From Alphaproteobacteria bacterium (GTDB lineage Bacteria; Pseudomonadota; Alphaproteobacteria; ATCC43930; CGMCC-115725): a stretch of DNA of 64,000 nt. The position numbers were made by a program, and so were the translations under genes. Positions 34,497 through 58,948 of this stretch are shown here, one piece after another (position 1 is the first letter of the stretch; every line of letters begins with the position of its first letter). The notes below the pieces were generated by a model, which was not told where the DNA came from, ran no database searches, and saw nothing but the letters and a program-made list of their open reading frames with translations. Location of the stretch: assembly GCA_030041335.1 (NCBI GenBank), contig JASHOB010000149.1, forward strand, positions 1 through 64,000. The letters are read 5' to 3'.

Positions 34497-34521
34497 GGTA
34501 AAGCCGATTCTAGGCTTTACC
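34497..34521 (-). terminator. Hairpin overlapping the 3' end of a MetE-like gene
   Basis: A perfect 9-base inverted repeat, GGTAAAGCC and GGCTTTACC, around a 7-base loop. The stop codon of the MetE-like gene lies inside the loop. It separates this gene from the livH-like gene 72 bases downstream. No U-run follows, so termination is only possible, not shown. Confidence 0.4.
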
Positions 34522-37873: not shown

Positions 37874-37994
37874 TGAGCTGCTTCCAATCGTCGATTGAAT
37901 CGTCGCGCCGGTTGTATCCGACAATCGGGCGACGTTAAAGTGATAACGCCATGCCGTGAAAGAGCGGTGCCGTCGAGAAATCAGGGGAAGGGCA

Positions 37995-38456
37995 ATGGAT
38001 CCCACTCTCGAATTTGTGTTTCAGATCAGCGTGCGGTTCGCCTCGCGCGACCGGGTCGGCGTCCTGCCAAGCGGCGTCCGTCGGGGCTATACGCCAACCT
38101 CCGGCGGCGAGATCACCGGGCCGCGCTTGCAGGGTCGCGTCGTACCCAACAGCGGCGGTGATTTTGCCAGCTGGTGGCCCAACGGCGTGGTCGAATTCGA
38201 CGCGCGATACATGCTCGAGGCCACAGACGGCACCTTGATCGTCATCAAGAATCGTGGCTTCCGCCATGCACCGGCCGACGTGCTCAAGCGCATGGAGGCG
38301 TTCGAGCCGGTCGATCACCGCGAATACTACATGCGGGTCGCACCATCTTTCGAGGCACCGGTCGGGCCCCACGATTGGCTGACGCGAACGGTGTTCGTCG
38401 GTTCCGGCGACCGGCACTTGGATCATTCGATCTTTCGCTATTTTGCGGTGCGCTGA
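37995..38456 (+). CDS. DUF3237 domain protein
   Basis: A 153-residue beta-rich protein with DUF3237 features: GEITGPRLQGRVVPNSGGDF, DARYMLEATDGTLI and IKNRGFRH. The function of the family is not settled. It often sits near aromatic or oxidative catabolic genes, which fits here. The ATG at 37995 has AGGGGAAGGG in front; a longer in-frame start at 37956 lacks this. It is the only rightward gene between 28.7 and 48.3 kb, divergent from the flavoprotein and convergent with a MetE-like gene 3 bases away. Confidence 0.82.
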   Translation: MDPTLEFVFQISVRFASRDRVGVLPSGVRRGYTPTSGGEITGPRLQGRVVPNSGGDFASWWPNGVVEFDARYMLEATDGTLIVIKNRGFRHAPADVLKRMEAFEPVDHREYYMRVAPSFEAPVGPHDWLTRTVFVGSGDRHLDHSIFRYFAVR

Positions 38457-38459
38457 GGA

Positions 38460-39608
38460 TCAGCCCCACAGCTCTTGGGACGCGAGCCTTGCGCCTTCGG
38501 TCAAGGCCCTGAGCTTTGCCCAGGCAATGCTCGGGTGAACGGTTCCGCTCGCGGCAAAGGTGGCGAAGCCGCAATCGGTGCCGGCAATGACGTTCTCGCG
38601 GCCGACCACGCGGGCAAAGCGCACGATGCGGTCGGCCACGGCGCGCGGATGCTCGACAAAATTCGAAACCGAATCGATCACACCCGGAATAACCACCTTG
38701 CCAGCCGGCAGCGCCGTCTTGCCAAAGACGCGCCACTCATGCTCGTGGCGCGGGTTCGCAGCTTCAAAGGAAATCATTGTCGCTCGCGACGTCAAAACGA
38801 GATCGAGGATGTCTGCGAGCGGAATGTCGTGATGGTGAGGGCCCGCATAATTACCCCAGCAGAGATGGAGCCGTAGCCGTTCCGGTGGGACGTCGCGGAG
38901 CGCATCGTCGAGTACCGCCAGGTGAAGGCGGACGATGTCGCGGAATTGGGACAAGGAACATTCGGCGAATTGATTGTTCCAACCCGACGCCAGGTCGGGG
39001 CAATCAACCTGCAAGTCAAAGCCGGCGGCGATGACGGCGTCATATTCCTCCTTCAGGACCGCTGCGAGTGCGCGCAGATAAGCCTCGTGGGTGTCGTAGT
39101 AGCGATTGCCGAGAAAGCGTGCCGCCTGACCGGGTGACACCGCAGTCATAAAGCCGCGGTCCGCCGCAATTCCCGCCGCCGCAAGCGCTGCCTTGAACCG
39201 GGTTATGTCGCGATCGACCGCATCGCGGTCGCGCCACGCCAGCGGCCCAGTGCAGCAAGGACGCGCGGCCACGACGCTGCCGCGGTTGAGGGTGGCGAAA
39301 TAGTCGGGAAAATCCCGGGCATCGCGTGACACCGGGTGCATCTCCATCTCGCCGTCGAAGCCGGCGAGCCGGTTTTTAATGTAGGTCGAGTAATCGGGCT
39401 TGCTTTGCTCGCCGTCATTGAGGAGGTCAATCCCGATCTCCTCCTGTCGGCGAACGATCTCGGCCACCGCAGCCGCCGCAGCCCGCGCGAATAACGCGGG
39501 ATCGACCGGTTCGCCACGCTCGCCGGCGCTCAGCAGGTCCAGCAATTCGACAGGTCGCGGCAGGCTGCCGGTATGAGTCGTCAGGATATGATCGCGCCTG
39601 CGCTGCAT
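38460..39608 (-). CDS. MetE-like methyl/alkyl transferase family protein (2)
   Basis: A 382-residue single-barrel MetE relative of the type often labelled cobalamin-independent methionine synthase II or epoxyalkane-CoM-transferase-like. It begins ILTTHTGSLPRPVELLDLL. It has zinc-type motifs HLCWGNYAGPHHHDI and AGTDCGFATF, and ends WAKLRALTEGARLASQELWG. The C-terminal half is very close to the protein at 57797. Its ATG shares one base with the stop of the Liv-type binding protein upstream (TGATG), so it is the last gene of that transport operon. It probably acts on the imported compound, but the reaction is unproven. Confidence 0.82.
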   Translation of the reverse strand: MQRRRDHILTTHTGSLPRPVELLDLLSAGERGEPVDPALFARAAAAAVAEIVRRQEEIGIDLLNDGEQSKPDYSTYIKNRLAGFDGEMEMHPVSRDARDFPDYFATLNRGSVVAARPCCTGPLAWRDRDAVDRDITRFKAALAAAGIAADRGFMTAVSPGQAARFLGNRYYDTHEAYLRALAAVLKEEYDAVIAAGFDLQVDCPDLASGWNNQFAECSLSQFRDIVRLHLAVLDDALRDVPPERLRLHLCWGNYAGPHHHDIPLADILDLVLTSRATMISFEAANPRHEHEWRVFGKTALPAGKVVIPGVIDSVSNFVEHPRAVADRIVRFARVVGRENVIAGTDCGFATFAASGTVHPSIAWAKLRALTEGARLASQELWG

Positions 39609-44918: not shown

Positions 44919-46451
44919 TCATGTTTTCTCGCTCACCAACGGCAGGTAAACGACTTCGAGTCCGTGCTTGCTTGGCGTATAGACGATGCCTTTCCTCATC
45001 GCGTAGACATCAACATATTGCCATAGCGTGATGGTCGAGAGGTCCTCCTGCTCGATTTTCATCATTTCCTTGATGTAAGGCGCTTGTCTGGCGACATCGA
45101 GAGTCGCGTCGGCCTTCGCCAGCAGCGCATCGAGCTGGTCGTTCTTATACATGGCGAACATGCCCGAGTAAGCCAGCGACACGCCTTCGATCGGCGTCGA
45201 AAGATTGGCAACCGGCAGCCCGGCCACGCCGACGTATTCGCCCTTGGGATCGCGCGCGATGTGGCCCAGCATCTGCAGCAACTGGATGAGCTGAATGCCC
45301 TGAACCTTGCTGTTCACATTGAGATTTTGCTTGAGATAGAGAGCCACTGCTTCAGCCGTCTCCATCGTGCCGAAATAGACGCCGGTCGAATAATAGAGCG
45401 GCATGTCGAAACCATTAGGGTAACCCGCGTCGGCCTCGAGGCGCCGCGCCTCTGCTGGATCGTATTTGTAATCGATCAGATTCGGGTCATAGCCGATTTC
45501 GTCCGGCATCAGCCGCGGATAATCGGTCGGCATGCCGTGCAGCAAGCCTTTGACGATCGCATCGCGGTCGATCGCGTGAGCCATTGCTTTGCGGATGCGC
45601 AGATCGTGCCAGGGCGTGTGCGGGTTGGCGAACTGCATCTGGATCGATTGCGTGGGATGCACCGGCAGCTTGACCAGACTGAAGCCTTGGCTCTTCAGTT
45701 GGTCGTAGGCCGAATAAGGCGTCGCCATGATCAAATCGACCTCGCCCGCCTGCAGCTTCGAAACGCGGGTATTGTCGTCTTGAACGAAGACAAAATGGGC
45801 ACGCTTGATTTGCGGCGCCTTGCCCCAATAGCCATCAAACGCCGCCAGATCGAGATATTCCGCCGGTTTGTAGTCGACGATCTTGTATGGACCGGTGCCG
45901 ACCGGATGCTTCGTAAATTCCTTTTCGCCAACCCGATCGTAATAGCTCTTCGACCCGATGATCAGCGCGGGCACCAAAAGGAACTGGGCATCTGGTTGCT
46001 TGAAGCTGAATTTGACGGTGTAGGGATCGATCGCCTCGACCTTGGTGATGAATTTGGCGAAGCTCAGCGCATAGAACCATGTCTTCTTCGACATGCGTTC
46101 GTGACTCCACAAAACGTCGGCCGAGGTGAACGGATCGCCGGAATGGAATTTGACGCCATGGCGCAGGTGCATGACGATCACCTTGCCGCCGTCCAGAGTG
46201 TCCCAGGATTGAGCCAATGCGGGGATGGTGTGGCCCTCCGCGTCGGCACGGACCAGCCCCTCATAGACGTTGACCAGCGTCGCCAAGCCCTGCGGCGGAT
46301 TGGTCGATTGCGTCATATCGAGCACATCGGGATCGGCGTTCATGGCGATCCGCAAGGGCGTCTGATCTGCCGCGAATAGCGGGCTCCAAGCGGCCACCGT
46401 GAATGCCGCCGCAATCGCCAAAATCGTGACCGGCCTGAACTTGGCTGCCAT
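44919..46451 (-). CDS. DppA/OppA-like substrate-binding protein (SBP_bac_5), copy 1
   Basis: Periplasmic binding protein of 510 residues with a Sec signal (MAAKFRPVTILAIAAAFTVA, cleavage near FAA-DQ). It shows the family pattern NADPDVLDMTQSTNPPQGLA near the start, then HLRHGVKFHSGDPFTSADVL and KHPVGTGPYKIVDYKPAEYL. It closely resembles the next gene at 46541, so the pair is a recent duplication. No cognate DppBCDF permease is in the window. The family binds peptides, but many members bind aromatic or other small molecules. GGGAGCAGG precedes the ATG. Confidence 0.9.
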   Translation of the reverse strand: MAAKFRPVTILAIAAAFTVAAWSPLFAADQTPLRIAMNADPDVLDMTQSTNPPQGLATLVNVYEGLVRADAEGHTIPALAQSWDTLDGGKVIVMHLRHGVKFHSGDPFTSADVLWSHERMSKKTWFYALSFAKFITKVEAIDPYTVKFSFKQPDAQFLLVPALIIGSKSYYDRVGEKEFTKHPVGTGPYKIVDYKPAEYLDLAAFDGYWGKAPQIKRAHFVFVQDDNTRVSKLQAGEVDLIMATPYSAYDQLKSQGFSLVKLPVHPTQSIQMQFANPHTPWHDLRIRKAMAHAIDRDAIVKGLLHGMPTDYPRLMPDEIGYDPNLIDYKYDPAEARRLEADAGYPNGFDMPLYYSTGVYFGTMETAEAVALYLKQNLNVNSKVQGIQLIQLLQMLGHIARDPKGEYVGVAGLPVANLSTPIEGVSLAYSGMFAMYKNDQLDALLAKADATLDVARQAPYIKEMMKIEQEDLSTITLWQYVDVYAMRKGIVYTPSKHGLEVVYLPLVSEKT

Positions 46452-46540
46452 CGGCCTGCTCCCTTCGAAGACTGCTCGAGACCGTCTGTGCTGCGTCGGG
46501 GCCCGGAAGCCGCACGCTCAGATCGTCGGCATCACATGCT

Positions 46541-48079
46541 TCACATCGCGACACGCACTTCCGGCAGATACACGACCTCGAGGCCGTGCCTGACGGGACG
46601 GTAGGTGACGCCTTTGCGCATGGCATAGACGTCGACGTACTGCCACAGGGTAATGGTTTGCAGAACGTTCTGCTCGATCTCCATCATTTTGGCGATCAAC
46701 GCACCTTGTTTGGCGAGATCGAGGGTGGCGTCCGCTTTTTCGTAGAGCGCATCCATCTGATCATCGTGGTTAAGCGCGAACGGCGCCTTGCCGTAGTAGG
46801 CGAGCGAGACGCCTTCGAGCGGCGTCGGCAGATTGGCGACAGGCAATCCCGCGACCGACACATATTCGCCCTTGGGATCCTTTGCCATGCGGCCGATGAG
46901 CTGCAACAGCTGGATCAGTTGGATCCCCTGTATCTTGGTGTTGACGTTGAGGTTCTGTTTGAGATAGAGGGCGACCGCTTCGGCGGTCTCTTGGGTACCG
47001 AAATAGACTCCGGTCGACACGTAGAGCGGCATGTCAAAGCCATTGGGGTAACCGGCCTCCTGCGCAAGTTGACGTGCTTTGGCGGGGTCGTATTTGTAGT
47101 CCTTCAGGTCGGGATCGTAGCCGAGCTCGTCAGGCATGAGCCGCGGATAGTCGGTCGGCACGCCGTGCAAGAGACCTTTCACAATCGCGTTCTTGTCGAT
47201 GGCATAGGCCATGGCTTGGCGGACGCGGACATCGGCCCAGGGCGTGTGCTTGTTGATCAACGACATCTGAACGGACTGCGTCGGATGCACCGGAAGTTTC
47301 ACCAGCGTGTAGCCGGCGTTCTTCAACTGATCGTAGGCGGCGTAGGGGGTCGCCATGATCATATCGACCTCGCCCGCCTGCAGTTTGGTTACTCGGGTAT
47401 TGTCGTCGCTGACGAAGACGAAATGCGCTCTCTTGATCGCGGGCTGCTTGTCCCAATAGCCATCCCAGGTGGCGAGATCGAGATATTGCGCGGGCTTGTA
47501 GTCGACAATTTTGTAAGGACCGGTGCCGACCGGATGCGCTGCGAATTCCTTTTCGCCGACGCGGTCGTAATAGGTCTTCGAGGCGATAATGAGAGCGGGG
47601 ATCGCAAGGAACTGGGCGTCGACCTGCTTCATGATCACTGTGACGGTGTAATCGTCGGGTGCCTCCATGTGATCGATGAAGCGCGCGAAGCCGCTGTAAA
47701 ACCAGGTCTTCTTCAACATGCGTTGATGGCTCCACAGCACGTCTTGCGACGTGAAGGGATCGCCCGACTGGAATTTGACCCCGTGACGCAGATGCAAGGT
47801 AATGACCTTGCCGTCTGGCGAGACATCATAGGTCTCCACCAGGCCCGGCCGTTTGCTGCCGTCCGGATTGAATCCCCACAGGCCTTCATAGACGTTGGTC
47901 AGCGTCGCCAGCCCTTGGGGCGGGTTGGTCGACTGCGTCATATCGAGAACATCGGGATCGGCATTCATCGCGACCCGCAACGGCTTTTCATCCTGGGCCC
48001 GGACCAAATCAATGCTGCCGGCAAAGACGCCGGCAGCCATGACCGTCATGGCACCGAGGAGCGCAATTTTACTTGTCAC
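46541..48079 (-). CDS. DppA/OppA-like substrate-binding protein (SBP_bac_5), copy 2
   Basis: A 512-residue paralogue of the protein at 44919, with the same NADPDVLDMTQSTNPPQGLA segment and near-identical stretches such as MATPYAAYDQLKNAGYTLVK and GVPTDYPRLMPDELGYDPDL. A signal peptide is visible (KIALLGAMTVMAAGVFAGSI). The GTG at 48079 was chosen because GGGAGG sits six bases before it; a longer in-frame frame lacks a signal at its start. It is divergent from the LigD-like gene, with which it shares a 218-base intergenic region. The duplicate pair may serve ligand variants of one compound class. Confidence 0.9.
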   Translation of the reverse strand: MTSKIALLGAMTVMAAGVFAGSIDLVRAQDEKPLRVAMNADPDVLDMTQSTNPPQGLATLTNVYEGLWGFNPDGSKRPGLVETYDVSPDGKVITLHLRHGVKFQSGDPFTSQDVLWSHQRMLKKTWFYSGFARFIDHMEAPDDYTVTVIMKQVDAQFLAIPALIIASKTYYDRVGEKEFAAHPVGTGPYKIVDYKPAQYLDLATWDGYWDKQPAIKRAHFVFVSDDNTRVTKLQAGEVDMIMATPYAAYDQLKNAGYTLVKLPVHPTQSVQMSLINKHTPWADVRVRQAMAYAIDKNAIVKGLLHGVPTDYPRLMPDELGYDPDLKDYKYDPAKARQLAQEAGYPNGFDMPLYVSTGVYFGTQETAEAVALYLKQNLNVNTKIQGIQLIQLLQLIGRMAKDPKGEYVSVAGLPVANLPTPLEGVSLAYYGKAPFALNHDDQMDALYEKADATLDLAKQGALIAKMMEIEQNVLQTITLWQYVDVYAMRKGVTYRPVRHGLEVVYLPEVRVAM

Positions 48080-48297
48080 ATCCACCCTCCCTAGGGTTCG
48101 GCTATGTTTTGGCGCTGTGGTTGCTGTGGCGCCGGTTTGCTGCGTGGTTATCATATGCGTTTGTTAATGTCATATGGTTTTGCTTAACGTCGTCGCCGCC
48201 CTAAAGGGCCGGATTTCCGGCACCCGAGGCTGACGTTCCAGCCCGAGAAGTAGGTTTGGGCGCGCGAGAATGCGAACCGATTCAAGGGAGGCGGGGC
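48080..48297. promoter_or_regulatory. Divergent control region with TCATATG direct repeats
   Basis: This gap must hold promoters for the DppA-like gene (left) and the Lig-like operon (right). It contains two TCATATG heptamers at 48151-48157 and 48170-48176, exactly 19 bases apart. The following bases are partly repeated too, 13 of 19 positions in all. The patch is clearly more AT-rich than its surroundings. A tandem operator for a regulator encoded elsewhere is the likeliest meaning. Confidence 0.45.
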
Positions 48298-49191
48298 ATG
48301 AAAGAGCTTGCGGGAAAGGTCGCGTTTATTACCGGCGGTGGATCGGGCGTCGCTCTCGGTCAGGCCAAAGTGTTCGCCGAGGAGGTGGGGATGAACGTGG
48401 TGATCGCCGATATTCGGCAGGATCATCTCGATACGGCGCTCGCCTATTTCCGCGGGAAGAACGCGGCGGTGCACGGGATAAGGCTTGACATCACCGACCG
48501 CGATGCCTGCCGGAGCGCCGCCGCAGAGGCGGAAAGCCGGTTCGGTTCGGTCCAGCTTTTGTGCAACACCGCCGGCGTCAGCCAGTTCGGCCCGGTGGAA
48601 AAGGCGACGTTCGGGGACTGGGATTGGCAAATCGACGTCAACCTCAAAGGGATGATCAATGTGATTCAAAGCTTCCTACCGCGGATGATCGAGCGGGGCC
48701 AGGGTGGGCACATTGTCAACACGGCCTCGATGTCGGCGTTCGTCGCGCTGCCGAACACGGCGATCTATTGCACCACCAAATATGCGGTCCGGGGCCTGTC
48801 GGAGTCGCTGCGCATCGAACTCGGCAAGTTCGATATCGGTGTGTCTTGCCTGTGCCCGGGCGCCGTCAACACCAATATCCACGAATCGGTGCTGGCTCGG
48901 CCCGACCGGTACGGCGACAGCGGCTATTACGGCGCCGATCCCGAAACCTTCAAGCGCCTGAAGTCCGTCATCGAAGGCGGCTTCGACCCGGTCGCACTCG
49001 GCCGCGTTGTCCGCGACGCGATCGAGCGCAACGATTTCTGGATCCTGCCGTTCCCCGAGTTCATCCCGACGATGGAACAGCGTAACGGCGAAGTCATCGC
49101 CGCCTTGAACCAGTACGTTGACCACCCCGACTATGCGCGGCGCATGAGGCTCCGTGCCGCACAGGGCCGTCCGATGCCGGGCGCCAACTAA
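48298..49191 (+). CDS. LigD/LigL-type C-alpha-dehydrogenase (SDR family)
   Basis: A 297-residue short-chain dehydrogenase. The overall sequence follows LigD/LigL, which oxidise the benzylic C-alpha alcohol of lignin beta-aryl ethers to a ketone with NAD+. Visible points are VAFITGGGSGVALGQAKVF (cofactor loop, with Ala where many SDRs have Gly), NTAGVSQFGPVEKATF, catalytic Ser in NTASMSAFVA, Tyr and Lys in IYCTTKYAV, and the late motif GDSGYYGADPETF. GGGAGG precedes the ATG. The next two genes are beta-etherase-like, so the order is that of the ether cleavage pathway. Stereopreference cannot be told. Confidence 0.86.
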   Translation: MKELAGKVAFITGGGSGVALGQAKVFAEEVGMNVVIADIRQDHLDTALAYFRGKNAAVHGIRLDITDRDACRSAAAEAESRFGSVQLLCNTAGVSQFGPVEKATFGDWDWQIDVNLKGMINVIQSFLPRMIERGQGGHIVNTASMSAFVALPNTAIYCTTKYAVRGLSESLRIELGKFDIGVSCLCPGAVNTNIHESVLARPDRYGDSGYYGADPETFKRLKSVIEGGFDPVALGRVVRDAIERNDFWILPFPEFIPTMEQRNGEVIAALNQYVDHPDYARRMRLRAAQGRPMPGAN

Positions 49192-49192
49192 C

Positions 49193-49924
49193 ATGGCCAG
49201 GAACGACACCATCACGTTATTCGACTTGGTACTGGCCAGCGGCTGTACCATCAGCCCGTTCGTGTGGCGCACCAAATATGCGCTGAAACATAAGGGCTTC
49301 GACATCGAACTGGTGCCTAATGGCTTTACCGGCATCAAGGAACTGACGGGAGGCCGGTCGGAGCGTCTTCCGGTCATTGTCGACGACGGCCAATGGGTGA
49401 TCGATAGCTGGAAGATCGCCGAATATCTCGACGCCAAATATCCGGACCGGCCGATGCTGTTCGCGGGCGACAGCATGAAGGTGCTCACCAAGTTCATCGA
49501 CCAATGGCTGTGGCGCACGGCGATCCGCGTTTGGATTCGCTGCTATATTCTCGACTATCACGATCTGTCGATGCCGCGGGACCATGCCTATGTCCGCGAA
49601 AGCCGCGAACGCATCTTAGGCGGGCGACTCGAAGAACTGCAGGCGGGACGAGAGGAGCGCTTGCCACTGGTGCCGCCGGCGCTCGAACCGCTGCGTGTCC
49701 TGCTCAAGGAAACGCGGTGGTTGGGCGGCAGCCAGCCAAATTACGCCGACTATTGTATTCTCGCGGTGTTTTTATGGGCTGCGTCGGTGGCGAAGGTGCC
49801 GCCGTTGCACGACGACGATCCGCTGCGGGACTATATTGATCGCGGCTTTGAGCTCTATGGCGGGCTCGGTCGCCATCCCGGTATGCACACTTTGTTCGGC
49901 TTGCCGAAACCGGCGGTCGGGTAG
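49193..49924 (+). CDS. LigE/LigP-type glutathione-dependent beta-etherase
   Basis: A 243-residue glutathione-transferase-fold protein. It follows LigE/LigP through most of its length: ARNDTITLFDLVLASGCTIS, PFVWRTKYALKHKGFDIE, GGRSERLPVIVDDGQWVIDS, RCYILDYHDLSMPRDHAYVR and GLGRHPGMHTLFGL. LigE and LigP cleave the beta-aryl ether of the (beta-R) ketone with glutathione, releasing guaiacol-type phenols. The serine in CTISP is the likely thiol-site residue. It ends shorter than LigE as I recall it, lacking the extended tail. The ATG lies 1 base after the dehydrogenase stop. Assigned by recalled sequence, not by alignment. Confidence 0.87.
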   Translation: MARNDTITLFDLVLASGCTISPFVWRTKYALKHKGFDIELVPNGFTGIKELTGGRSERLPVIVDDGQWVIDSWKIAEYLDAKYPDRPMLFAGDSMKVLTKFIDQWLWRTAIRVWIRCYILDYHDLSMPRDHAYVRESRERILGGRLEELQAGREERLPLVPPALEPLRVLLKETRWLGGSQPNYADYCILAVFLWAASVAKVPPLHDDDPLRDYIDRGFELYGGLGRHPGMHTLFGLPKPAVG

Positions 49925-49930
49925 GGAATC

Positions 49931-50674
49931 ATGACGCTCGAACTTCATCATGGCGGCCCCGGCGCCAACTCGCTCAAGGTGCTGCTGACCCTCGCGGAAA
50001 AGAACATCGATTATGTCGATCATCGGCTCAACCTGGTGCGGTTCGAGCAGCACGAACCGGAATTCGTGAAGATCAATCCGCGCGGGCAAGTGCCGGTGCT
50101 GATCCATGACGGACGCATCATCACGGAATCGACCGTGATCTGTGAATATCTCGATGCCGTTTTCCCGGCGGTGCCGCTGCGCCCCAGGGACGAATACTGG
50201 CGCGCGCAAATGCGCATATGGACCAAGTTTGTCGACGAATATTTCTGCTGGTGCGTTTCAACGCTCGGGTGGGAGGCGATGGGCAAGCGGGTGGTGCGCG
50301 ACATGCCCGAGGCAGCGTTCGAGGCCTTTGTCGCTCGTGTGCCGCTCCATGAGCAGAAGGTAAAATGGCGCAACGCGCGTCACGGCTTCGATCCGGCACT
50401 GCTCGCGGAGGAACGCCGTAAGATTCGCTTTTCCGTCGAGAAACTCGAAGCCGACCTGACGGAGCGCAAATGGCTGGCCGGTGACGAATACTCGCTTGCC
50501 GACATCTGCACCTACCCGATGGCATCTGCGGTGCCGCGGCTGATGCCGGAGGCGATGAGCGAAGCCGCGGCGCCGCGGGCGATGGCTTGGCTCCGCGCCA
50601 TCGGCGAACGGTCCGCAACCCGGCAAGTTTTCGCCGGCGCGCCGCGGCCGACGCCTCTCAAAGCCGGAAACTAG
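49931..50674 (+). CDS. LigF-type glutathione-dependent beta-etherase
   Basis: A 247-residue glutathione-transferase-fold protein that follows LigF closely: GPGANSLKVLLTLAEKN, FEQHEPEFVKINPRGQVP, ITESTVICEYLDAVFP, RIWTKFVDEYFCWCVSTLGW and VPLHEQKVKWRNARHGF. LigF cleaves the (beta-S) enantiomer, so with the LigE-like neighbour both enantiomers could be handled. The serine and asparagine of GANS sit where glutathione is activated. It starts 6 bases after the LigE-like gene. Its stop overlaps the stop of the convergent ABC permease gene (CTAG). No LigG-like glutathione lyase follows. Confidence 0.88.
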   Translation: MTLELHHGGPGANSLKVLLTLAEKNIDYVDHRLNLVRFEQHEPEFVKINPRGQVPVLIHDGRIITESTVICEYLDAVFPAVPLRPRDEYWRAQMRIWTKFVDEYFCWCVSTLGWEAMGKRVVRDMPEAAFEAFVARVPLHEQKVKWRNARHGFDPALLAEERRKIRFSVEKLEADLTERKWLAGDEYSLADICTYPMASAVPRLMPEAMSEAAAPRAMAWLRAIGERSATRQVFAGAPRPTPLKAGN

Positions 50675-51639
50675 ACCAGAGCGGCGGCGGCTTTGCGGCG
50701 ACGGATCCGGTCGGTGATCGAATTCAGCGCCAAAGCCGCCAACAGGATCGAGCCATAGGCGATCTGGATGTAGTAGATCGAAACCTGCGCCAGCGAGAAC
50801 AGGTTTTCGATCAGGAACAGCAAGGCGCCACCCGCGGCGGCGCCAAGCAGGCCACCGCGCCCGCCGCTGAACGCGACGCCACCCAGCGCTACACCGGCGA
50901 TCGACGTCAAGATATAGGGCGCACCCACGGTCGGGTCGGCCGAGCCAAGGGTCGCCGTGAAAACCAGGCCGGTCACCGAGGCGAGCACGCCGGCGATGAC
51001 GAAGGCTACGATCCGCACCGCGGTGACGTTGACGCCGGCGGTGTAGGCCGCCCGAATGTCGCCGCCGACGGCGAGAAGATTGCGGCGGTACGCGGTTTTA
51101 CCGAGCAGCCACCACAGCACGGCGATGATGACGAAGACCCAGACAATTCCCGGCACGCCGAAACTCTCGCCCGAGATGACCCGCATCCACGGCGGCGCGC
51201 TGCCCCCGGCAGTCGGCAGGACTTCGAGAGTCAGCCCCTGATAGGTCAGGAACGTGCCGAGCGTCGCGATGATCGGCTGAACCCGGACGATGGTGACGAG
51301 GAAACCATTCAATAGTCCCGAGGCAACGCCGATGCCGAGCGCGATCGTGATCATGGAGAACGGATCGGTGAGGCCGAGGCTCGGCAGCGTCACGGCGGCG
51401 ATGGCGTTGACCAGGCCGGCGAGCGGTCCGACCGAAAGGTCGAGATCGCCATTGCCGGACATGATCGGCACGGTCTGCGCCCAGGTCGTGATGATAAAGG
51501 GCGCGGCTCCCAACAGGACGGGCCGCCAATTGTCATGACTGACAAAGATTGGGTTGGCGACGAAATTGGCGAAAAACAGGATGGCGAAGCCGAACAGCGC
51601 CGGCCAATAGTAGGCTTGCCGGTCGATCTTCAACGTCAT
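50671..51639 (-). CDS. Sugar-type ABC permease (RbsC-like), second
   Basis: Inner-membrane permease of 322 residues of the RbsC group (BPD_transp_2), with about eight to ten hydrophobic segments. GNGDLDLSVGPLAGLVNAIA matches the conserved G-x-I-DLSVG motif, and GVALGGVAFSGGRGGLLGAA matches the later one. The ATG at 51639 overlaps the ATPase stop as ATGA; upstream in-frame residues belong to another frame. It is the last gene of the importer operon and meets the LigF-like gene end to end. Confidence 0.88.
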   Translation of the reverse strand: MTLKIDRQAYYWPALFGFAILFFANFVANPIFVSHDNWRPVLLGAAPFIITTWAQTVPIMSGNGDLDLSVGPLAGLVNAIAAVTLPSLGLTDPFSMITIALGIGVASGLLNGFLVTIVRVQPIIATLGTFLTYQGLTLEVLPTAGGSAPPWMRVISGESFGVPGIVWVFVIIAVLWWLLGKTAYRRNLLAVGGDIRAAYTAGVNVTAVRIVAFVIAGVLASVTGLVFTATLGSADPTVGAPYILTSIAGVALGGVAFSGGRGGLLGAAAGGALLFLIENLFSLAQVSIYYIQIAYGSILLAALALNSITDRIRRRKAAAALV

Positions 51640-53198
51640 AGCTGGCGCCCCGCCGCGGCCGCCTGTCCGAACATGGCCGCGATCAGCGCCTGTGCGTCCA
51701 AGCTTTCGCGCCCGATAACGGCAAACAGCGCATGGTTGTGAAAGACCGCGACGCGATCGCACAGCAGGCACAGTTCGGCAAGTTCGGTGGACAGCAACAG
51801 CACCGCGCCGCCGTCAGACGCGAATTGTTCAAGGATTTTGTATATGTCCTGCTTGGCGCCGAGATCGACGCCGCGCATCGGGTCGTTCAGCACCAGCGCG
51901 CGCGGCCTGAGCGCCAACTGCCGTCCGAGAAAGACCTTTTGCTGGTTGCCGCCGCTTAGGGCGGCGACCGGTGCCGTCAAACCGGGCGCGACGACGTGCG
52001 ATTGCTTGATGAGGCGTGCGCCCTCGGCGCGGCGCCGAGCCTCGGCCAGCAGGCCGAAATGGGAGAAGCGGCGAAGCGCCGCTATCGTCAGATTATCGAG
52101 CACCGACAGCGGCGCGAAAATGCCCTCCGTCTTACGCTCGCGCGGCAGATAGGCGATGCCGGCACGCGCCGCGTTGCCGAATGAGGTGACGGCGCCCCGC
52201 TCAGTCTCGACCGCGCCCCGCGCGGGCCGCCGCAGGCCGGCGATGGCTTCGATAAAGGCAACCTGGCCGTGGCCTTCGAGGCCGGCGATGCCGACGATTT
52301 CCCCGGCACGAACGGTAAGGTCGAAAGCGGCGGATTCGGCACGAATCGCAACCCGCTTGGCCTCGAAGACCGGCGCGCCGATCGCGCGCCGGATCTTGGC
52401 CGCCACCGCGCCTTCGGCGGCCTCCGCCTCTTCATGCGTCGACATCAGCTCGAGCAGTGTTTCGGTCGAAGTTTGGCCCCGCGTCAGCGTCGCGACGCTG
52501 CGCCCGGAGCGCAACACCGTTGAACGATCGGCGATGTCGAGAATCTCGTCCATGCGATGGGACACGAACAGGATCGACCGGCCTTCGGCACGAAACCGAC
52601 GCAACGCTTCGAACAGCCGGTCGCGCGCATCGACGTCGAGCGCGGAGGTCGATTCATCGAGCACCAACAGCCGCCACGGGCGGAGCAGCGCCCGCGCGAT
52701 GGTGACGCCTTGCCGCTGCGCCAGCGACAGCGCCGCCACCGGCGTCTCGGTTCCCAAGGTAGCCATGCCGATGGTGTCCAGCGCCTGACGCACGAGCCGC
52801 GTTTCCTCGGCATTCGACAGCACGCGACGGAACAAATGATCGAGGCCGAGCACGACGTTGTCACGCACGGACAATTGATCGAGGACCAGCGTTTCCTGGA
52901 ACACCGTTGCGATGCCCGCCTTTTGGGCGGCGCGTGGATTGTCGAAATTCGCGACCTGGCCGTTCCACACCAGCTCGCCGCCGCTTTGCGGCAAGATCCC
53001 GCTCAGGATTTTGATCAGTGTGCTTTTGCCGGAGCCGTTCTCGCCGACCAGCGCATGGATCTCGCCTGGCTCGATCGCGAAGGAGCAATCCGCGAGCGCG
53101 ATCGTCTCTCCGAAGTTGCGCCGCAGGGCACGAAAGCTTGCTATTGGCGCCGGCGCCGTCGCTTCGGCCGATAGATGGTTGGTGGCCGCCACGCTCAT
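51636..53198 (-). CDS. Sugar-type ABC ATPase with two nucleotide domains (RbsA-like)
   Basis: A 520-residue tandem ATPase. The first domain has Walker A GENGSGKSTLIKILSG, signature LSLAQRQGVTIARALL and Walker B LLVLDESTSALDVDAR. The second has the degenerate P-loop IAGLEGHGQVAFIEAIAG, typical of RbsA, with LSGGNQQKVFLGRQLAL and VLNDPMRGVDLGAKQDI. The ATG at 53198 overlaps the stop of the upstream permease gene (ATGA). It powers uptake for the two permeases on either side. Confidence 0.9.
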   Translation of the reverse strand: MSVAATNHLSAEATAPAPIASFRALRRNFGETIALADCSFAIEPGEIHALVGENGSGKSTLIKILSGILPQSGGELVWNGQVANFDNPRAAQKAGIATVFQETLVLDQLSVRDNVVLGLDHLFRRVLSNAEETRLVRQALDTIGMATLGTETPVAALSLAQRQGVTIARALLRPWRLLVLDESTSALDVDARDRLFEALRRFRAEGRSILFVSHRMDEILDIADRSTVLRSGRSVATLTRGQTSTETLLELMSTHEEAEAAEGAVAAKIRRAIGAPVFEAKRVAIRAESAAFDLTVRAGEIVGIAGLEGHGQVAFIEAIAGLRRPARGAVETERGAVTSFGNAARAGIAYLPRERKTEGIFAPLSVLDNLTIAALRRFSHFGLLAEARRRAEGARLIKQSHVVAPGLTAPVAALSGGNQQKVFLGRQLALRPRALVLNDPMRGVDLGAKQDIYKILEQFASDGGAVLLLSTELAELCLLCDRVAVFHNHALFAVIGRESLDAQALIAAMFGQAAAAGRQL

Positions 53199-54151
53199 AT
53201 CTGCATTCTCACATGGGACTCGCGGCCGTAGATCGCGACCAGCATGACAATCAGGATACCGAGGCACACTTGCTGCGCGGCCTCGTCGAGACCGAGACCG
53301 ATCAGCAACATCGTCAGCTCGGTGATGATGAAGCAGCCCGCGATGGTGCGCGCATAGCCGCCACGTCCGCCGATGATCGGCGTACCGCCGATCACTACTG
53401 CCGAGAGTGTGGTGAAGAGATAGGCGTCCCCGACCTGCGGATCCGCCGCGCTACTGAAGCCCGCCAGCAATATCCCGGCGACCGCCGATAAGCCGCCGCT
53501 GATGGCGAACACCACGGTCCACAGCAGCAGCGAGGGAATGCGAGCGAGTTCGGCCGCGCCGGGATTAGCGCCGGAAGCATAGCTCCAACGTCCAAGCACG
53601 GAACGCCGCTCCAGCACCACAAATACGACAACGAGCAGGATCCACAAAATCACCGAGCCAGGCAGCGGGATTGGCCCGGTCCAGCCGATCACCGAGACGA
53701 AATCGGTGACGAAATCGGGGACGCTGCCGCGGTTGTCACCCTTGGTATTTGCCCAGATCGCACCGTAGATAATGGTGCTGGTGGCGAGCGTCACAATCAA
53801 CGAGCTGACCCGCAGGGTGCGCGAAATCAAGCCGTTGATGGCGCCGATGACAATGCCGGCGACGATTACGGCCGGCCCGATTATGAAGGGCGAAACGCCC
53901 TGACCGAAGGCCACCGCGAACGCTACGCACGCGAGCCCGATCACCGCCGGCACCGACAAATCGATACCGCCCATGATGATCGTCAAGGTCTGCCCGGCGG
54001 AGGCGATGCCCAGCAGACTCGCCAACAAGAGCAGCGAGCGGATGCTGACGAGATTGCCGTAACCCGGAATAACGGCGGCGGTGACGACGAACAGGCCGAC
54101 CGCGATGGCGAAAGGCGCAAGCACATCAAGCCTATGTCGCAGCCAATTCAT
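53195..54151 (-). CDS. Sugar-type ABC permease (RbsC-like), first
   Basis: Inner-membrane permease of 318 residues, RbsC type. The DLSVPAVIGLACVAFAV segment follows MGGIDLSV, the hallmark of the family, and VVIGGTPIIGGRGGYARTIAG matches the second conserved region. With the permease at 50671 it probably forms a heterodimer, as in AraH/AI-2-type systems with two permease genes. It lies 101 bases downstream of a binding protein gene. Confidence 0.88.
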   Translation of the reverse strand: MNWLRHRLDVLAPFAIAVGLFVVTAAVIPGYGNLVSIRSLLLLASLLGIASAGQTLTIIMGGIDLSVPAVIGLACVAFAVAFGQGVSPFIIGPAVIVAGIVIGAINGLISRTLRVSSLIVTLATSTIIYGAIWANTKGDNRGSVPDFVTDFVSVIGWTGPIPLPGSVILWILLVVVFVVLERRSVLGRWSYASGANPGAAELARIPSLLLWTVVFAISGGLSAVAGILLAGFSSAADPQVGDAYLFTTLSAVVIGGTPIIGGRGGYARTIAGCFIITELTMLLIGLGLDEAAQQVCLGILIVMLVAIYGRESHVRMQI

Positions 54152-54252: not shown

Positions 54253-55470
54253 TTAAGGGTTAGGCTTGGGCTCGACCGGCTTACCGCCTTCGAAGAACTG
54301 GTCGAAATAAGAATCCGCAATCAGATGATGGTCAGGCGGATCCGCCCAGCAAGTGCTCGTCACCGTCATGCTCGGCTGATAGAGCTGTGCCGCACGGGCA
54401 TCGTCGATCACGCTCGGGGGCATCCAAATCGTATTGACGATCGGTTTCTGCCCGAAAAGCATCTTGATGGCGATCAGAAACGCCTCATAACCCATCGAAC
54501 CGCCGCCGGCGTTGCCAGACAGCGAGTGCAGCTTCTTGTCGTGCCAATAGGCGATATAGGCGCATTCGTTGGTACCGTCCGCCTGCATGGCGAGTGGCCT
54601 TCCGGATTGCCGCAGCGCCTCGTCGGCGGCAACGGACATGTCGCCGTAGGCGATGATGCCGTCGAGCTTCTGCGGATGGGTCGCGAGCCACTTTACCATC
54701 TCGGTCTTGGCTGTGGCCTCGTTCCAGAAGCCATAGACCGTGCCGACGAGCCGAATCTCAGGATATTTCGCCAGCACGTCCTTCGATCCCGCCTCGAGCG
54801 AGACCGTCGTCGAAATACCTGGCACGCCGCTCAGAATGAGGACGTTGCCGCGATGGTTGATGGCGTCGGCCACCCATTGCGCCAGCACCTTGCCGGCGAC
54901 ATAGCCGTTGCCGCCGATATTGATGGCGTCGTTGCACTCCGCCGCGGCTTGAACCGTGATAACCAAAACGCCCTGTTCATGCGCGTCGTGCATGCCCGAG
55001 CACAGACCGACCGGATTGCTCGGGATGGTGAAGATCACGGTGCAGCCCTGCCGGTGCAGATTGTTGAACTGGGTGAGCTGGACGTTGATGTTGTTGTTGG
55101 AATCGGTGACCAGGACCTCCGCCTTCGTTAGTCCCGCGGCGTGATATTGCGCATTGAGCTTCTTCAGCTCGTTATAAAGATCGGTGCGCCACGAGGTTCC
55201 CAGCATGGAGTCGTTGAAGCAAAGCTGCCAAGGCGGCGGCGGCGGCGTCCAATTCTGGTAAGGATTGTCGTATATTGGAGCGAAATACCAGTAGTGGTCG
55301 TAGTTGGGACGCGTCTCCGCCGGCAGTTTTGCCATTGCGGTTTGCTGTTCAGCCGCGGCCGGCGCCGGCGGCGCGTTGGCGGCCTTGCCACTATTGCCGG
55401 CGAGACCGAGGACAAACGCCGCCGTTGCGAGCAATACCGCCGCCCGCATCGCCACATACCAAGGTTTCAT
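54253..55470 (-). CDS. Sugar-type ABC substrate-binding protein, copy 1
   Basis: Periplasmic binding protein of 405 residues of the RbsB-like group (Peripla_BP_4). It has a signal peptide (MRAAVLLATAAFVLGLAG) and then an unusual 70-residue N-terminal extension with NYDHYWYFAPIYDNPYQNW and runs of prolines. The ligand domain has DSNNNINVQLTQFNNLHRQG and SGVPGISTTVSLEAGSKDVL. GGGAGGTGGC precedes the ATG at 55470. It is a close paralogue of the next gene and belongs to the same operon as two permeases and an ATPase. Binding a phenolic ligand rather than a sugar is possible, given the context. Confidence 0.88.
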   Translation of the reverse strand: MKPWYVAMRAAVLLATAAFVLGLAGNSGKAANAPPAPAAAEQQTAMAKLPAETRPNYDHYWYFAPIYDNPYQNWTPPPPPWQLCFNDSMLGTSWRTDLYNELKKLNAQYHAAGLTKAEVLVTDSNNNINVQLTQFNNLHRQGCTVIFTIPSNPVGLCSGMHDAHEQGVLVITVQAAAECNDAINIGGNGYVAGKVLAQWVADAINHRGNVLILSGVPGISTTVSLEAGSKDVLAKYPEIRLVGTVYGFWNEATAKTEMVKWLATHPQKLDGIIAYGDMSVAADEALRQSGRPLAMQADGTNECAYIAYWHDKKLHSLSGNAGGGSMGYEAFLIAIKMLFGQKPIVNTIWMPPSVIDDARAAQLYQPSMTVTSTCWADPPDHHLIADSYFDQFFEGGKPVEPKPNP

Positions 55471-55557
55471 GCCACCTCCCAATGGGTTTTGTCCTTGAAG
55501 GCGGATGGGCGACAGTTGAACTGCCGCCCATCCCCAAACTACTCGTTCACGTTGGGA

Positions 55558-56778
55558 TCAGGGGTTTGGTTTGGGCTCGACCGGCTTGCCGCCCTTAAAG
55601 AACATGGCGATATAGGAATCGGGGGCCAGGTGATGATCGGGCTCGTCCGCCCAGCACGTGCTGGTCGGCGTGATACCGGGCCAGGCTGCATAAAGCTTTG
55701 CGGCGCCGGCGTCGTTCAGCGGCGGCAACGGGAACCAGATCATATTCGTCACCGGCTTCTGCCCGAACAGCATTTTGATCGCGACCAGGAACGCCTCATA
55801 GCCATTGGAGCCGCCGCCGGCCAACAACGCCAGGCTGTGCAGCTGCTTGTCATGCCAATAGGCGATGTAGGCGCACTCGTTGGTACCATCGGCCTGCATC
55901 ACCGGCGGGCGGCCCGATTGGGCGAGCGCCTCGTCGGCCGCGACGGCCATGTCGCCGTAGGAAACGATACCGTCGAGTCGTTGCGGATGCGTCGCCAGCC
56001 ATTTCACCATTTCGGTTTTGGAGGTGGCCTCGTTCCAGAAGCCATAGACGGTGCCGACAATCTTGATTCCCGGATACTTGGCCAAGGCGGCTTTCGATCC
56101 GGCTTCGAGCCCGATGGTCGTTGAAATCCCCGGCACGCCACTCAGGATCAGGACGTTGCCCTTGCCGTTCAGGGCCTTGCCAACCCAATCCGCGAGTTCG
56201 CGGCCGCCATAATATTGGTTGCTGCCGACATTGATGGCGTAGTTGCAATTGACCGGTGATTGAACCGTGATGTTGATCACGCCCTTTTCCAGGGAATCAT
56301 GCATCCCCGCACACAGGCCCGTCGGGTTGCTGGGTGTCGAAACGATGACGTTGCAGCCTTGCCGCGACAGGTTGTTTAACTGAGTCAGTTGAACGCTGAT
56401 GTTGTTGTTGGAATCGGTCACCAGCACGTCGGGCTTGGTCAAACCGGCGGCATGGTATTGGGCGTTGAGCTTCTTCAACTCGTTGAGCAGGTCGGTGCGC
56501 CACGAGGTGCCGAGCATGGAATCATTGAGGCAGAACTGCCAGGGCGGCGCCGGCGGCGTCCAATTGGCGTAAGGATCGGGCGCGACCGGAGCGTTGTACC
56601 AATAATGATCGTAGTAGATGCGCGCCCTCGGCGGCACCGTCGCCAGCGCCGTCTGCTGCTCCGCAGCGCTCGGCGCCGGCACGTCATTGGCCGCCACAGC
56701 GCGTTCGGCGCCGATCGCAATGATGCCTGCCCCAGTCAAGGTCAGGACAAACGCGCGCACAATACTCCATAATTTCAT
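55558..56778 (-). CDS. Sugar-type ABC substrate-binding protein, copy 2
   Basis: A 406-residue paralogue of the protein at 54253, the first gene of the operon. The signal peptide reads IVRAFVLTLTGAGIIAIGAE. The same extension occurs (YYDHYWYNAPVAPDPYANW, then PPWQFCLNDSMLGTSWRTD), as does SGVPGISTTIGLEAGSKAAL. Large parts of the mature proteins match nearly residue for residue, which points to a fairly recent tandem duplication. GAGGGAGGC precedes the ATG at 56778. Two binding proteins for one channel suggest two related ligands. Confidence 0.88.
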   Translation of the reverse strand: MKLWSIVRAFVLTLTGAGIIAIGAERAVAANDVPAPSAAEQQTALATVPPRARIYYDHYWYNAPVAPDPYANWTPPAPPWQFCLNDSMLGTSWRTDLLNELKKLNAQYHAAGLTKPDVLVTDSNNNISVQLTQLNNLSRQGCNVIVSTPSNPTGLCAGMHDSLEKGVINITVQSPVNCNYAINVGSNQYYGGRELADWVGKALNGKGNVLILSGVPGISTTIGLEAGSKAALAKYPGIKIVGTVYGFWNEATSKTEMVKWLATHPQRLDGIVSYGDMAVAADEALAQSGRPPVMQADGTNECAYIAYWHDKQLHSLALLAGGGSNGYEAFLVAIKMLFGQKPVTNMIWFPLPPLNDAGAAKLYAAWPGITPTSTCWADEPDHHLAPDSYIAMFFKGGKPVEPKPNP

Positions 56779-56894: not shown

Positions 56895-57791
56895 TTAGCG
56901 CCCTCCTCTCGATGCTTGAGCATAGATCGGGTTCGAGGTCAGGAAACCGATCGCGGCGGCGCGTTCCCGATTGATCGGCTCCTCGGGAAAGGCGTCGAGC
57001 ATGGCCTCGCAACGCTGCCGGACCCCGTCCTTGAATTCGGGATGGGTGAAGATGAAGAGGTCGTTGCGTTCGACGCCGCGCCGGACGCGCTCGCCGGCTT
57101 CCTCGTGATCCATCCACAGCGGATTGTTCGGCCGTTCACCGAGGCGCTGTTCGAACTCGACATAGCCGCTGTTCCGGCGGAAACGCTCTGGCCGCAACCG
57201 CCCGGTTTGCGCGATATTGGTCTGCACCGGCCCGGGGCAGAATGCCGAGACGCCGATATTGTCGTCCGCCAGTTCACCGCGCAGCACTTCGGATAGTGCC
57301 ATCACCGCCGCCTTTGCCGCGATATAGATGCCGGCGCGCGATATCGGCAGCACTGCCGCCATCGACGCGGTATTGACGACGTGGCCGCCTTCGCCATGCG
57401 CCAGAATCCGCGGCAGGAATTCCTGGATGCCGTTGATGACGCCGTTGAGATTGACGTCGAGGCCCCAATCCCAATCGTCGTACTTCGCCAGCTTGAGTGG
57501 TCCACCGATGCCGATTCCGGCGTTGTTGACCAGCACGTGAACCTTGCCGCAAAGCCTCTCCGTGGTCGCGGCCGCGGCGGCCATCGCGGCGCGATCGGTG
57601 ACGTCGAGATGGAGCGGATGAACGGCCTGGCCGCGCGACGTGAAAGCGGCAACCGCGTGGTCGAGATGATCCTGCCGGATATCGGCGATGACGATCGTCA
57701 TGCCGGCATTGGCAAAGGCCTTGGCGATGCCGAACCCGATGCCACTGGCACCGCCGGTGATGAAAGCAGCCTTGCCGCGGAGATTTTCCAT
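56895..57791 (-). CDS. Short-chain dehydrogenase, LigD/LigL-related
   Basis: A 298-residue short-chain dehydrogenase with layout like LigD/LigL, but more distant than the protein at 48298. It has AAFITGGASGIGFGIAKAF, a standard cofactor loop, NNAGIGIGGPLKLAKYDDWD, Ser in NTASMAAVLP, Tyr and Lys in IYIAAKAAV, and NSGYVEFEQRLGERPNNPLW. It may oxidise a second stereoisomer of the benzylic alcohol, as LigL and LigN do beside LigD; this is inference. It starts 5 bases after the MetE-like gene upstream and is read leftward with it. Confidence 0.82.
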   Translation of the reverse strand: MENLRGKAAFITGGASGIGFGIAKAFANAGMTIVIADIRQDHLDHAVAAFTSRGQAVHPLHLDVTDRAAMAAAAATTERLCGKVHVLVNNAGIGIGGPLKLAKYDDWDWGLDVNLNGVINGIQEFLPRILAHGEGGHVVNTASMAAVLPISRAGIYIAAKAAVMALSEVLRGELADDNIGVSAFCPGPVQTNIAQTGRLRPERFRRNSGYVEFEQRLGERPNNPLWMDHEEAGERVRRGVERNDLFIFTHPEFKDGVRQRCEAMLDAFPEEPINRERAAAIGFLTSNPIYAQASRGGR

Positions 57792-57796
57792 TCCGC

Positions 57797-58948
57797 TCAG
57801 CCCCACAATTCGCGGCTGGCGAGCCGCGCACCGGCGACGAGGGTTTCGAACTTGGCCCACATTACCGTCGGATGGACGCGCTGGATAAAATCGACCTGAG
57901 CGAAGCCGCAATCGGTGCCGGCAATGACGTTCTCGCGGCCGACCAGTTTGGCGTAGCGGATAATGCGATCGGCGACGACCCGCGGATGCTCGACGGTGAT
58001 GGTGTGATGCGTCACCACCCCGGGGATCAGAATCTTGCCGGGCGGCAACTTGATCTTCTCCCACACCCGCCATTCGTGTTCGTGGCGTGGATTGGCGGCC
58101 TCAATCGAATAGGCCTGGGCGCGAACCTTCAGAACCAGGTCGACAATGTCCTCAAGCGGCGCGTCGGCGATGTGCGGCACGTGCCACGAGCCGAAGCAGA
58201 TATGATAGCGGATGCGGTCCTCCGGAATCCCCTCGAGCGCGTGGTTGAGCGCCGCGACGCGCAGTTCGGCCCATTCGCGATATTTTGCCGGGCTTTGCTG
58301 CACCAGATGATCGTACATGTTGGCGAGCACGGCGTCGTCGACCTGGAGGATGAAGCCCGCCTCGTGGATCGCGCGATATTCCTCGCGCAGGGCATCGGCG
58401 ATGGCAAAGACGTAATCGTGCTCGGTCGGATAGTACTCATTGACGCCATCGAAAGCCGTACTGGCAGGCGCCACGGCGGTGAAGAAGACTTCCTCGACCT
58501 TGGCCGAGTGCGCCGCCGCTTTGAGATTCTCCATGTCGCGCTTGATGATGGCGTGGCCCTTGTACTTGATAGGACCGACGCAGGCTTCGGTCGGATCACC
58601 GGTTTTCACTCGCGGCATCTCGACTGCGATCGCGTCGAGGAACCGCTCGCGGTCGCGTCCAAGCCAGTAGACCGGCCGTAACTGGTTGGGACGAACCTCA
58701 AACCCGGTGACGCGCTCGAGGATGTAATTGGCCCAGCTGCCCTTGCCGTATTCGCCGTCGTTGACGATGTCGAGCCCGATGCTGGCCTGCTGCTTTACCA
58801 CCTCCGCCACCGAGCGGCGCAGCAACGTATCGTAGTCCGCCTGCCTTGCCGGCTGTTCCATCGCCGCCTTGGCGCTGTCCAACAGCGCCTGGGGCCGGAT
58901 CAGGCTGCCGACATGAGTGGTCAGAATGCGGTGTTCGCTGCGTTTCAC
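57797..58948 (-). CDS. MetE-like methyl/alkyl transferase family protein (3)
   Basis: A 383-residue single-barrel MetE relative, sister of the protein at 38460. It starts RILTTHVGSLIRPQALLDS, has HICFGSWHVPHIADAPLED and AGTDCGFAQVDFIQRVHP as the probable His-x-Cys and Cys zinc ligands, and ends WAKFETLVAGARLASRELWG. Family chemistry is zinc-activated thiol attack on a methyl or alkyl donor. It is co-oriented with the LigD-related dehydrogenase and divergent from a Tat-exported binding protein. The substrate is unknown; candidates include a methyl donor from O-demethylation, or a thioether. Confidence 0.82.
   Translation of the reverse strand: MKRSEHRILTTHVGSLIRPQALLDSAKAAMEQPARQADYDTLLRRSVAEVVKQQASIGLDIVNDGEYGKGSWANYILERVTGFEVRPNQLRPVYWLGRDRERFLDAIAVEMPRVKTGDPTEACVGPIKYKGHAIIKRDMENLKAAAHSAKVEEVFFTAVAPASTAFDGVNEYYPTEHDYVFAIADALREEYRAIHEAGFILQVDDAVLANMYDHLVQQSPAKYREWAELRVAALNHALEGIPEDRIRYHICFGSWHVPHIADAPLEDIVDLVLKVRAQAYSIEAANPRHEHEWRVWEKIKLPPGKILIPGVVTHHTITVEHPRVVADRIIRYAKLVGRENVIAGTDCGFAQVDFIQRVHPTVMWAKFETLVAGARLASRELWG

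Follow-up and report, generated by a model that had tools for sequence, protein, structure and literature searches.

A CUT2-type importer operon with two extended binding proteins beside LigE- and LigF-like genes in an alphaproteobacterial genome

What might an ABC importer of a sugar-transporter type carry when both of its binding proteins bear an aromatic-rich N-terminal extension and its operon lies tail to tail with genes resembling those for the cleavage of lignin dimers? This question is raised by a locus in the window, i.e. the whole stretch of 64,000 nt that was analysed. Two binding-protein genes lie next to each other on the minus strand, exactly at the positions given in a preliminary description of this DNA, and both products match Peripla_BP_4 (PF13407) above the cut-off of 35.1 bits (127.0 bits for SBP1 and 130.4 bits for SBP2). 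They belong to the following operon, for which the start codons are our own choice:

57797..58948, minus strand: protein resembling the MetE C-terminal domain (PF01717), operon gene 1; 55.0 bits against a cut-off of 21, with H-x-C, E and C motifs in the translation
56895..57791, minus strand: SDR2, LigL-like C-alpha-dehydrogenase, operon gene 2; best PDB match 4yae (LigL), 264.8 bits
55558..56778, minus strand: SBP1, CUT2-type solute-binding protein with N-terminal extension, 406 aa; PF13407 match
54253..55470, minus strand: SBP2, paralogue of SBP1 (71% identity), 405 aa counted from the ATG; PF13407 match
53195..54151, minus strand: importer permease 1 (BPD_transp_2), 95.2 bits
about 51636..53198, minus strand: importer ATPase of the CUT2 type (two ABC domains); best NCBIfam match AraG with 369.6 bits, below the cut-off of 689
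50671..51639, minus strand: importer permease 2 (BPD_transp_2), with a 4-base overlap between its end and that of the convergent LigF-like gene

The genes thus follow each other as MetE-C-like, SDR2, SBP1, SBP2, permease, ATPase, permease; neighbours either overlap by 4 nt or stand no more than 116 nt apart. Since the operon combines permeases of the BPD_transp_2 family with an ATPase that has two ABC domains, as is typical of the CUT2 type, we assign SBP1 and SBP2 to the class of CUT2-type ABC importers with a PF13407 binding protein. E. coli RbsB, YtfQ and other CUT2 binding proteins share this Pfam family and the operon type of permease plus double ATPase. They differ from the SBP pair, which has an extension of 45-50 residues, a C-terminal tail and replaced RbsB-type anchors, with six cysteines in the clade of the window. 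The NCBIfam RbsB equivalog gives the pair 27.4 and 32.1 bits against a cut-off of 337, and every NCBIfam equivalog score is far under its own cut-off. On sequence grounds, the extension marks an uncharacterised branch of the RbsB-type (CUT2) binding proteins, in which most of the customary sugar anchors are absent. For SDR2, LigL is the nearest solved structure (264.8 bits, versus 237.2 for LigO and 206.9 for LigD). MetE-C-like (PF01717) proteins occur three times in the window (34510-35619, 38460-39608 and 57797-58948), each time adjoining an ABC importer operon, and the own genome has 39 PF01717 matches, the highest number among 39 genomes of the family, 23 of them close to the operon copy. 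As to their role, one might guess at thiol- or methyl-transfer in aromatic O-demethylation or in glutathione chemistry.

The PF13407 matches begin at residues 90 and 95 of the two proteins and the best PDB match at residue 83, so that about 50 (45-50) residues lie between the signal peptide and the domain recognised by Pfam:

56536..56691, minus strand: N-terminal extension of SBP1, precursor residues about 30-81
55225..55380, minus strand: N-terminal extension of SBP2, precursor residues about 31-82

The motifs YDHYWY, PY-NWTPP and PPWQ-C, reported earlier ahead of the ligand domain, are seen in both translations, and residues 37-84 of SBP1 comprise 3 Trp, 5 Tyr and 9 Pro in 48 positions. The extension changes somewhat faster than the fold, as SBP1 and SBP2 are 64% identical over the stretch 30-79 and 76% over the fold. 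Between YDHYWY and WTPP, identity is still 85% in the congeneric genome G002, 89% in G003 and 17 of 27 residues in G001, and this retention argues that the extension is real beyond chance. We looked for the same extension in well-studied sugar-binding proteins: it was not found in E. coli RbsB, YtfQ and LsrB by alignment, and none of the 50 distinct sequences matched in a PDB search aligned before residue 83. In this respect the extension is as unusual as had been proposed, but it is not peculiar to the pair, since all 25 distinct members of three clades, from several alphaproteobacterial families, carry a version of it with a Y...PPW-type segment. The idea that it is unique to SBP1 and SBP2 was dropped after these alignments. 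Of the 30 aligned rows 29 are distinct (a shortened SBP2 duplicate was left out of the counts); the segment, typically LP......Y....P...Y..W....PPW, stands directly ahead of strand 1 in 25 of these 29 and is missing from the 4 most distant ones. The tree of binding proteins (15 of the 29 rows) falls into three clades: one for the window genus (5 rows), one of Rhizobiaceae and a third of mixed alphaproteobacterial origin. From this distribution over three clades we consider the extension an old family trait, of which the Trp/Tyr-rich form would be the version of the window genus.

Relatives are widespread on plasmids, where tblastn found them in 176 records, all at less than 60% identity (E up to 1e-15); among the 40 plasmid matches listed, alignments start at query residues 33-45, within the extension. 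Four plasmid relatives were taken from the listed matches for the alignment. Many Rhizobium phaseoli records have, among the matches listed, at least three places per plasmid with SBP relatives. A profile search at E ≤1e-50 found relatives in 7 of 385 class, 12 of 398 phylum-sample and 4 of 43 order genomes, counts which include the own genome and favour Rhizobiaceae, as the profile already held members of that family. A search of viral contigs for SBP relatives found none.

The aromatic content (3 W, 5 Y and 9 P per 48 residues) and the retention of the stretch from YDHYWY to WTPP at 17 of 27 residues in G001 would suit a lid or clamp that closes over the cleft and extends the ligand range to aromatics, and a covering of the cleft had been suggested before. 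We found no support for this. The segment runs directly into strand 1, which in binding folds of type I has its N-terminus at the pole remote from the cleft, and less aromatic versions occur across the extension-bearing family, which makes a lid very improbable. An AlphaFold2 model from an alignment of SBP1, SBP2, L014 and L015 (mean pLDDT 36.7) was too poor to test cleft cover. We propose instead that the segment was inherited as part of the N-lobe and forms a short helix followed by a Pro/Trp strap into strand 1. Every one of the 13 distinct rows of the window-genus and Rhizobiaceae clades has both C83, in strand 1 and adjoining the extension, and C142; none of the 12 distinct rows of the mixed alphaproteobacterial clade has either. 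This co-occurrence, which reflects few events on the tree, is consistent with a disulfide that probably ties the segment to the lobe.

The two genes had also been described as nearly identical over long stretches and hence as products of a recent duplication, and neither statement holds. The proteins share 287 of 407 aa (71%), the codon-aligned DNA is 72% identical with 55% at third positions, and the longest identical run is 26 nt. A simple NG86 estimate gives a dN of 0.215 and a dS of about 1.15. G002 and G003 have one binding protein each at the position in the operon, with 82-83% identity to SBP1; in the tree SBP1 groups with these single proteins and SBP2 branches outside that group (support 94/97), with the binding protein of G001 (53-54% identity to both) as outgroup. 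A recent duplication was rejected on dS and tree, since this branching appears to place the duplication ahead of the split of the genus. It looks as if SBP2 was subsequently lost in the other genomes; alternatively, SBP2 evolved faster.

We then compared the ligand pocket with E. coli RbsB, YtfQ and LsrB. The sugar contacts of RbsB (D89, R90, R141, N190 and Q235) correspond to Q, S or A, L, G and A, so that all five differ in SBP1 and in SBP2; the positions are replaced in the relatives too. The column of D215, which appears shifted, was left out of this comparison. F164 of RbsB is replaced by W, and the loop after strand 1 contains W-R, as in YtfQ. As the RbsB anchors are replaced and no sugar-specific NCBIfam model comes near its cut-off for either protein, the pocket speaks against ribose, while pointing to no ligand in particular. 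We consider it somewhat unlikely that this is a common CUT2 importer of a sugar, a sugar acid or a polyol that lies by chance in a catabolic island, with the extension as a neutral family trait. Sugar importers do have the same fold and the same families of permease and ATPase, and one distant relative adjoins lactonase, aldose-epimerase-like and LacI-type genes, but the loss of all five anchors, the LigL-like SDR within the operon and the absence of a sugar kinase or isomerase among the operon genes argue the other way.

On the opposite strand, the following genes converge tail to tail with the importer operon, with the 4-base overlap given above:

48298..49191, plus strand: SDR, LigO-like C-alpha-dehydrogenase; PDB 4ya6 (LigO), 456 bits, residues 1-296 of 297
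49193..49924, plus strand: LigE-like beta-etherase (GST); PDB 4yam, 412.7 bits, next best other GST about 54 bits
49931..50674, plus strand: LigF-like beta-etherase (GST); PDB 4xt0 (LigF), 233 bits, next best 64.6 bits

By sequence the LigO-type, LigL-type, LigE and LigF genes of the beta-aryl-ether pathway are present, and a LigG-type glutathione lyase was not recognised among the genes of the window. If the assignments hold, the products are putative enzymes for cleavage of beta-O-4 lignin dimers. Like Sphingobium SYK-6 with its LigD/L/N/O, LigE and LigF, the window has LigO-, LigE- and LigF-like genes, here adjacent, and a LigL-like gene in the importer operon. It differs from SYK-6 in the order SDR-LigE-LigF, in the Stellaceae-type genome, in the CUT2 importer alongside and in the lack of a recognised LigG. 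LigE and LigF divide the beta-configurations between them. Likewise, the dehydrogenases differ in alpha-configuration, with alpha-R substrates oxidised by LigD and LigO and those of alpha-S type by LigL and LigN, according to PMC4858972, from which the Lig names of the SDR PDB entries were also taken. Dehydrogenases for both alpha-configurations would thus stand beside the importer, again if the assignments hold. A LigE-type sequence alone is no proof of the reaction, since an Agrobacterium enzyme of this type is reported not to have shown the SYK-6 reaction (PMC11497285). LigE-like matches with at least 55% identity and E ≤1e-75 are rare (3 of 372 class genomes, the own included). Directly before the LigO-LigE-LigF genes lie two tandem peptide-type binding proteins (SBP5, GsiB-like; 44919-48154), whose orthologues adjoin LigE in G002 (84-85%) and which could be relevant to glutathione or aromatic uptake. 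An acyl-CoA-dehydrogenase-like protein (36590-38005) has an 83% orthologue directly after LigF in G002 and is possibly a further pathway enzyme. Matches to LigA-type protocatechuate/gallate dioxygenase (PF07746), e.g. G000:C194:75523-75780, occur in all four genomes of the genus, consistent with aromatic catabolism.

The genomes of the genus are few, and all but the own one are incomplete. G002 and G003 have this gene order too, with a single SBP (MetE-C-like, SDR2, SBP, permease, ATPase, permease); their MetE-C-like partner is 88% (a fragment cut by the contig end) and 80% identical, respectively. The contig of G002 carries the operon, a second CUT2-type system on the other strand, the acyl-CoA-dehydrogenase-like gene, LigF, LigE and two SBP5 genes (LigE 84%, LigF 78% and SBP 82% identical), with LigE-LigF about 7 kb past the last permease of the operon. 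In G003, whose genes are 80-90% identical, the operon is again accompanied by a second CUT2 system, and the contig ends ahead of any Lig gene. The second system, with an ATPase-permease fusion, lies at L062 6489-11336 between operon and LigF in G002, and the fusion likewise follows next after the operon in G003. The contig of G001 is 4.3 kb long and has a different gene upstream of the binding protein, and the incomplete genomes G001 and G003 gave no LigE match. One congener contig belongs to the MAG 'Stellaceae bacterium isolate CRAIB_MAG78'. The operon is thus linked to LigE/LigF in two of two genomes where the contig allows a view (G000 and G002), within a single genus.

Linkage of importer and LigE was rejected as a general rule, as the LigE-like loci of two sphingomonad-like genomes have no match to the importer of the window or to its LigO/LigF-like genes within about 9 kb. 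In other families, SBP relatives mostly have permeases and ATPases of their own beside them, and no LigE or LigF. Rhizobiaceae relatives (28-30% identity) stand in other catabolic contexts, without LigE/LigF-like neighbours within about 8 kb, from which it follows that the extension-bearing family is not lignin-specific. In RHE_RS30010 of the Rhizobium etli symbiotic plasmid p42d and its relatives (29% identity) the extension has the same layout and ends in PPPWKIGYASTYAGNTWR; unlike the pair of the window, the R. etli protein is an orphan (L016 8926-10095) that adjoins genes for flavin-dependent oxidoreductases, without LigE/LigF.

Our reading, held tentatively and at somewhat short of an even chance, is that the gene neighbourhood points to a CUT2-type importer for a lignin-derived aromatic, perhaps a beta-aryl-ether dimer. 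SBP1 and SBP2 would be alternative receptors of one RbsABC-like importer, each binding its periplasmic ligand and delivering it to the same permease pair driven by the double ATPase. The ligand would most likely be a lignin-derived aromatic, possibly a beta-aryl-ether dimer or a closely related phenylpropane unit. After import, the LigL-like SDR of the operon and its LigO-like counterpart on the other strand would oxidise it at C-alpha, and LigE and LigF would then cleave it with glutathione. Having two receptors might allow for several stereoisomers or variants of the side chain, in parallel with the dehydrogenases and etherases. The earlier proposal of a non-sugar ligand is likewise favoured, though unproven, by the replaced polar anchors of RbsB, the LigL-like gene in the operon and the LigO-LigE-LigF genes opposite.

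With one Lig-type enzyme inside the operon, a catabolic link between importer and Lig genes is the most economical assumption. The neighbourhood is weak evidence in itself, since the window is rich in importers; in addition, a second CUT2-type system separates operon and LigF in G002, and LigE-LigF linkage was found in only two related genomes (G000 and G002). CUT2 pockets usually accept ligands the size of a monosaccharide, which would fit a small aromatic or phenylpropanoid monomer (e.g. an arylglycerol or a monolignol glucoside) feeding the same SDRs better than a dimer. SDR2 could use another benzylic alcohol, and the island contains other importers as well as HpaB-like and acyl-CoA-dehydrogenase-like genes, named by reading their translations. 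As the closest neighbours are LigE and LigF, whose substrate is an ether dimer, we regard such a monomer as distinctly unlikely.

The CUT2-type importer of the window differs in type from CouPSTU of Rhodopseudomonas palustris, which is presumably a branched-chain-amino-acid-type system. CouPSTU is described in PMC3610893 as an ABC importer for lignin-derived aromatics, specifically lignin monomers. DdvT (a TonB receptor) and DdvK (MFS) of SYK-6, reported to take up the lignin-derived dimer DDVA, a charged 5-5 dimer, are transporters of other classes than the importer of the window. GGE apparently crosses the outer membrane of SYK-6 via TonB-dependent transporters (PMC8599685). A 2026 review states that uncharged lignin dimers, such as the beta-aryl-ether dimers, have no implicated transporter, likely owing to their lack of charge (PMC12997858). 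Among the papers listed in our literature search, none deals with the extension or with ABC import of beta-aryl-ether dimers. The usual size of CUT2 pockets, the importer-rich island and the uncharged dimers without implicated transporter count against the lignin-dimer link. The most specific form of our reading, a dedicated inner-membrane ABC importer for beta-aryl-ether dimers with receptors of complementary stereochemistry and an aromatic pocket in a sugar-importer scaffold, is one that we consider fairly unlikely.

Were this form true, the importer would be the first transporter tied to beta-aryl-ether dimers, and the extension-bearing family would represent a wider set of non-sugar CUT2 receptors. 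A binding protein from this locus would also help in engineering the uptake of lignin compounds. By its sequence, the extension allows a binding-protein family to be recognised of which no member in our PDB search aligned to that segment. With a screenable binding protein that is co-operonic with a LigL-like gene and faces LigO-LigE-LigF, the question of lignin-dimer uptake becomes directly testable.
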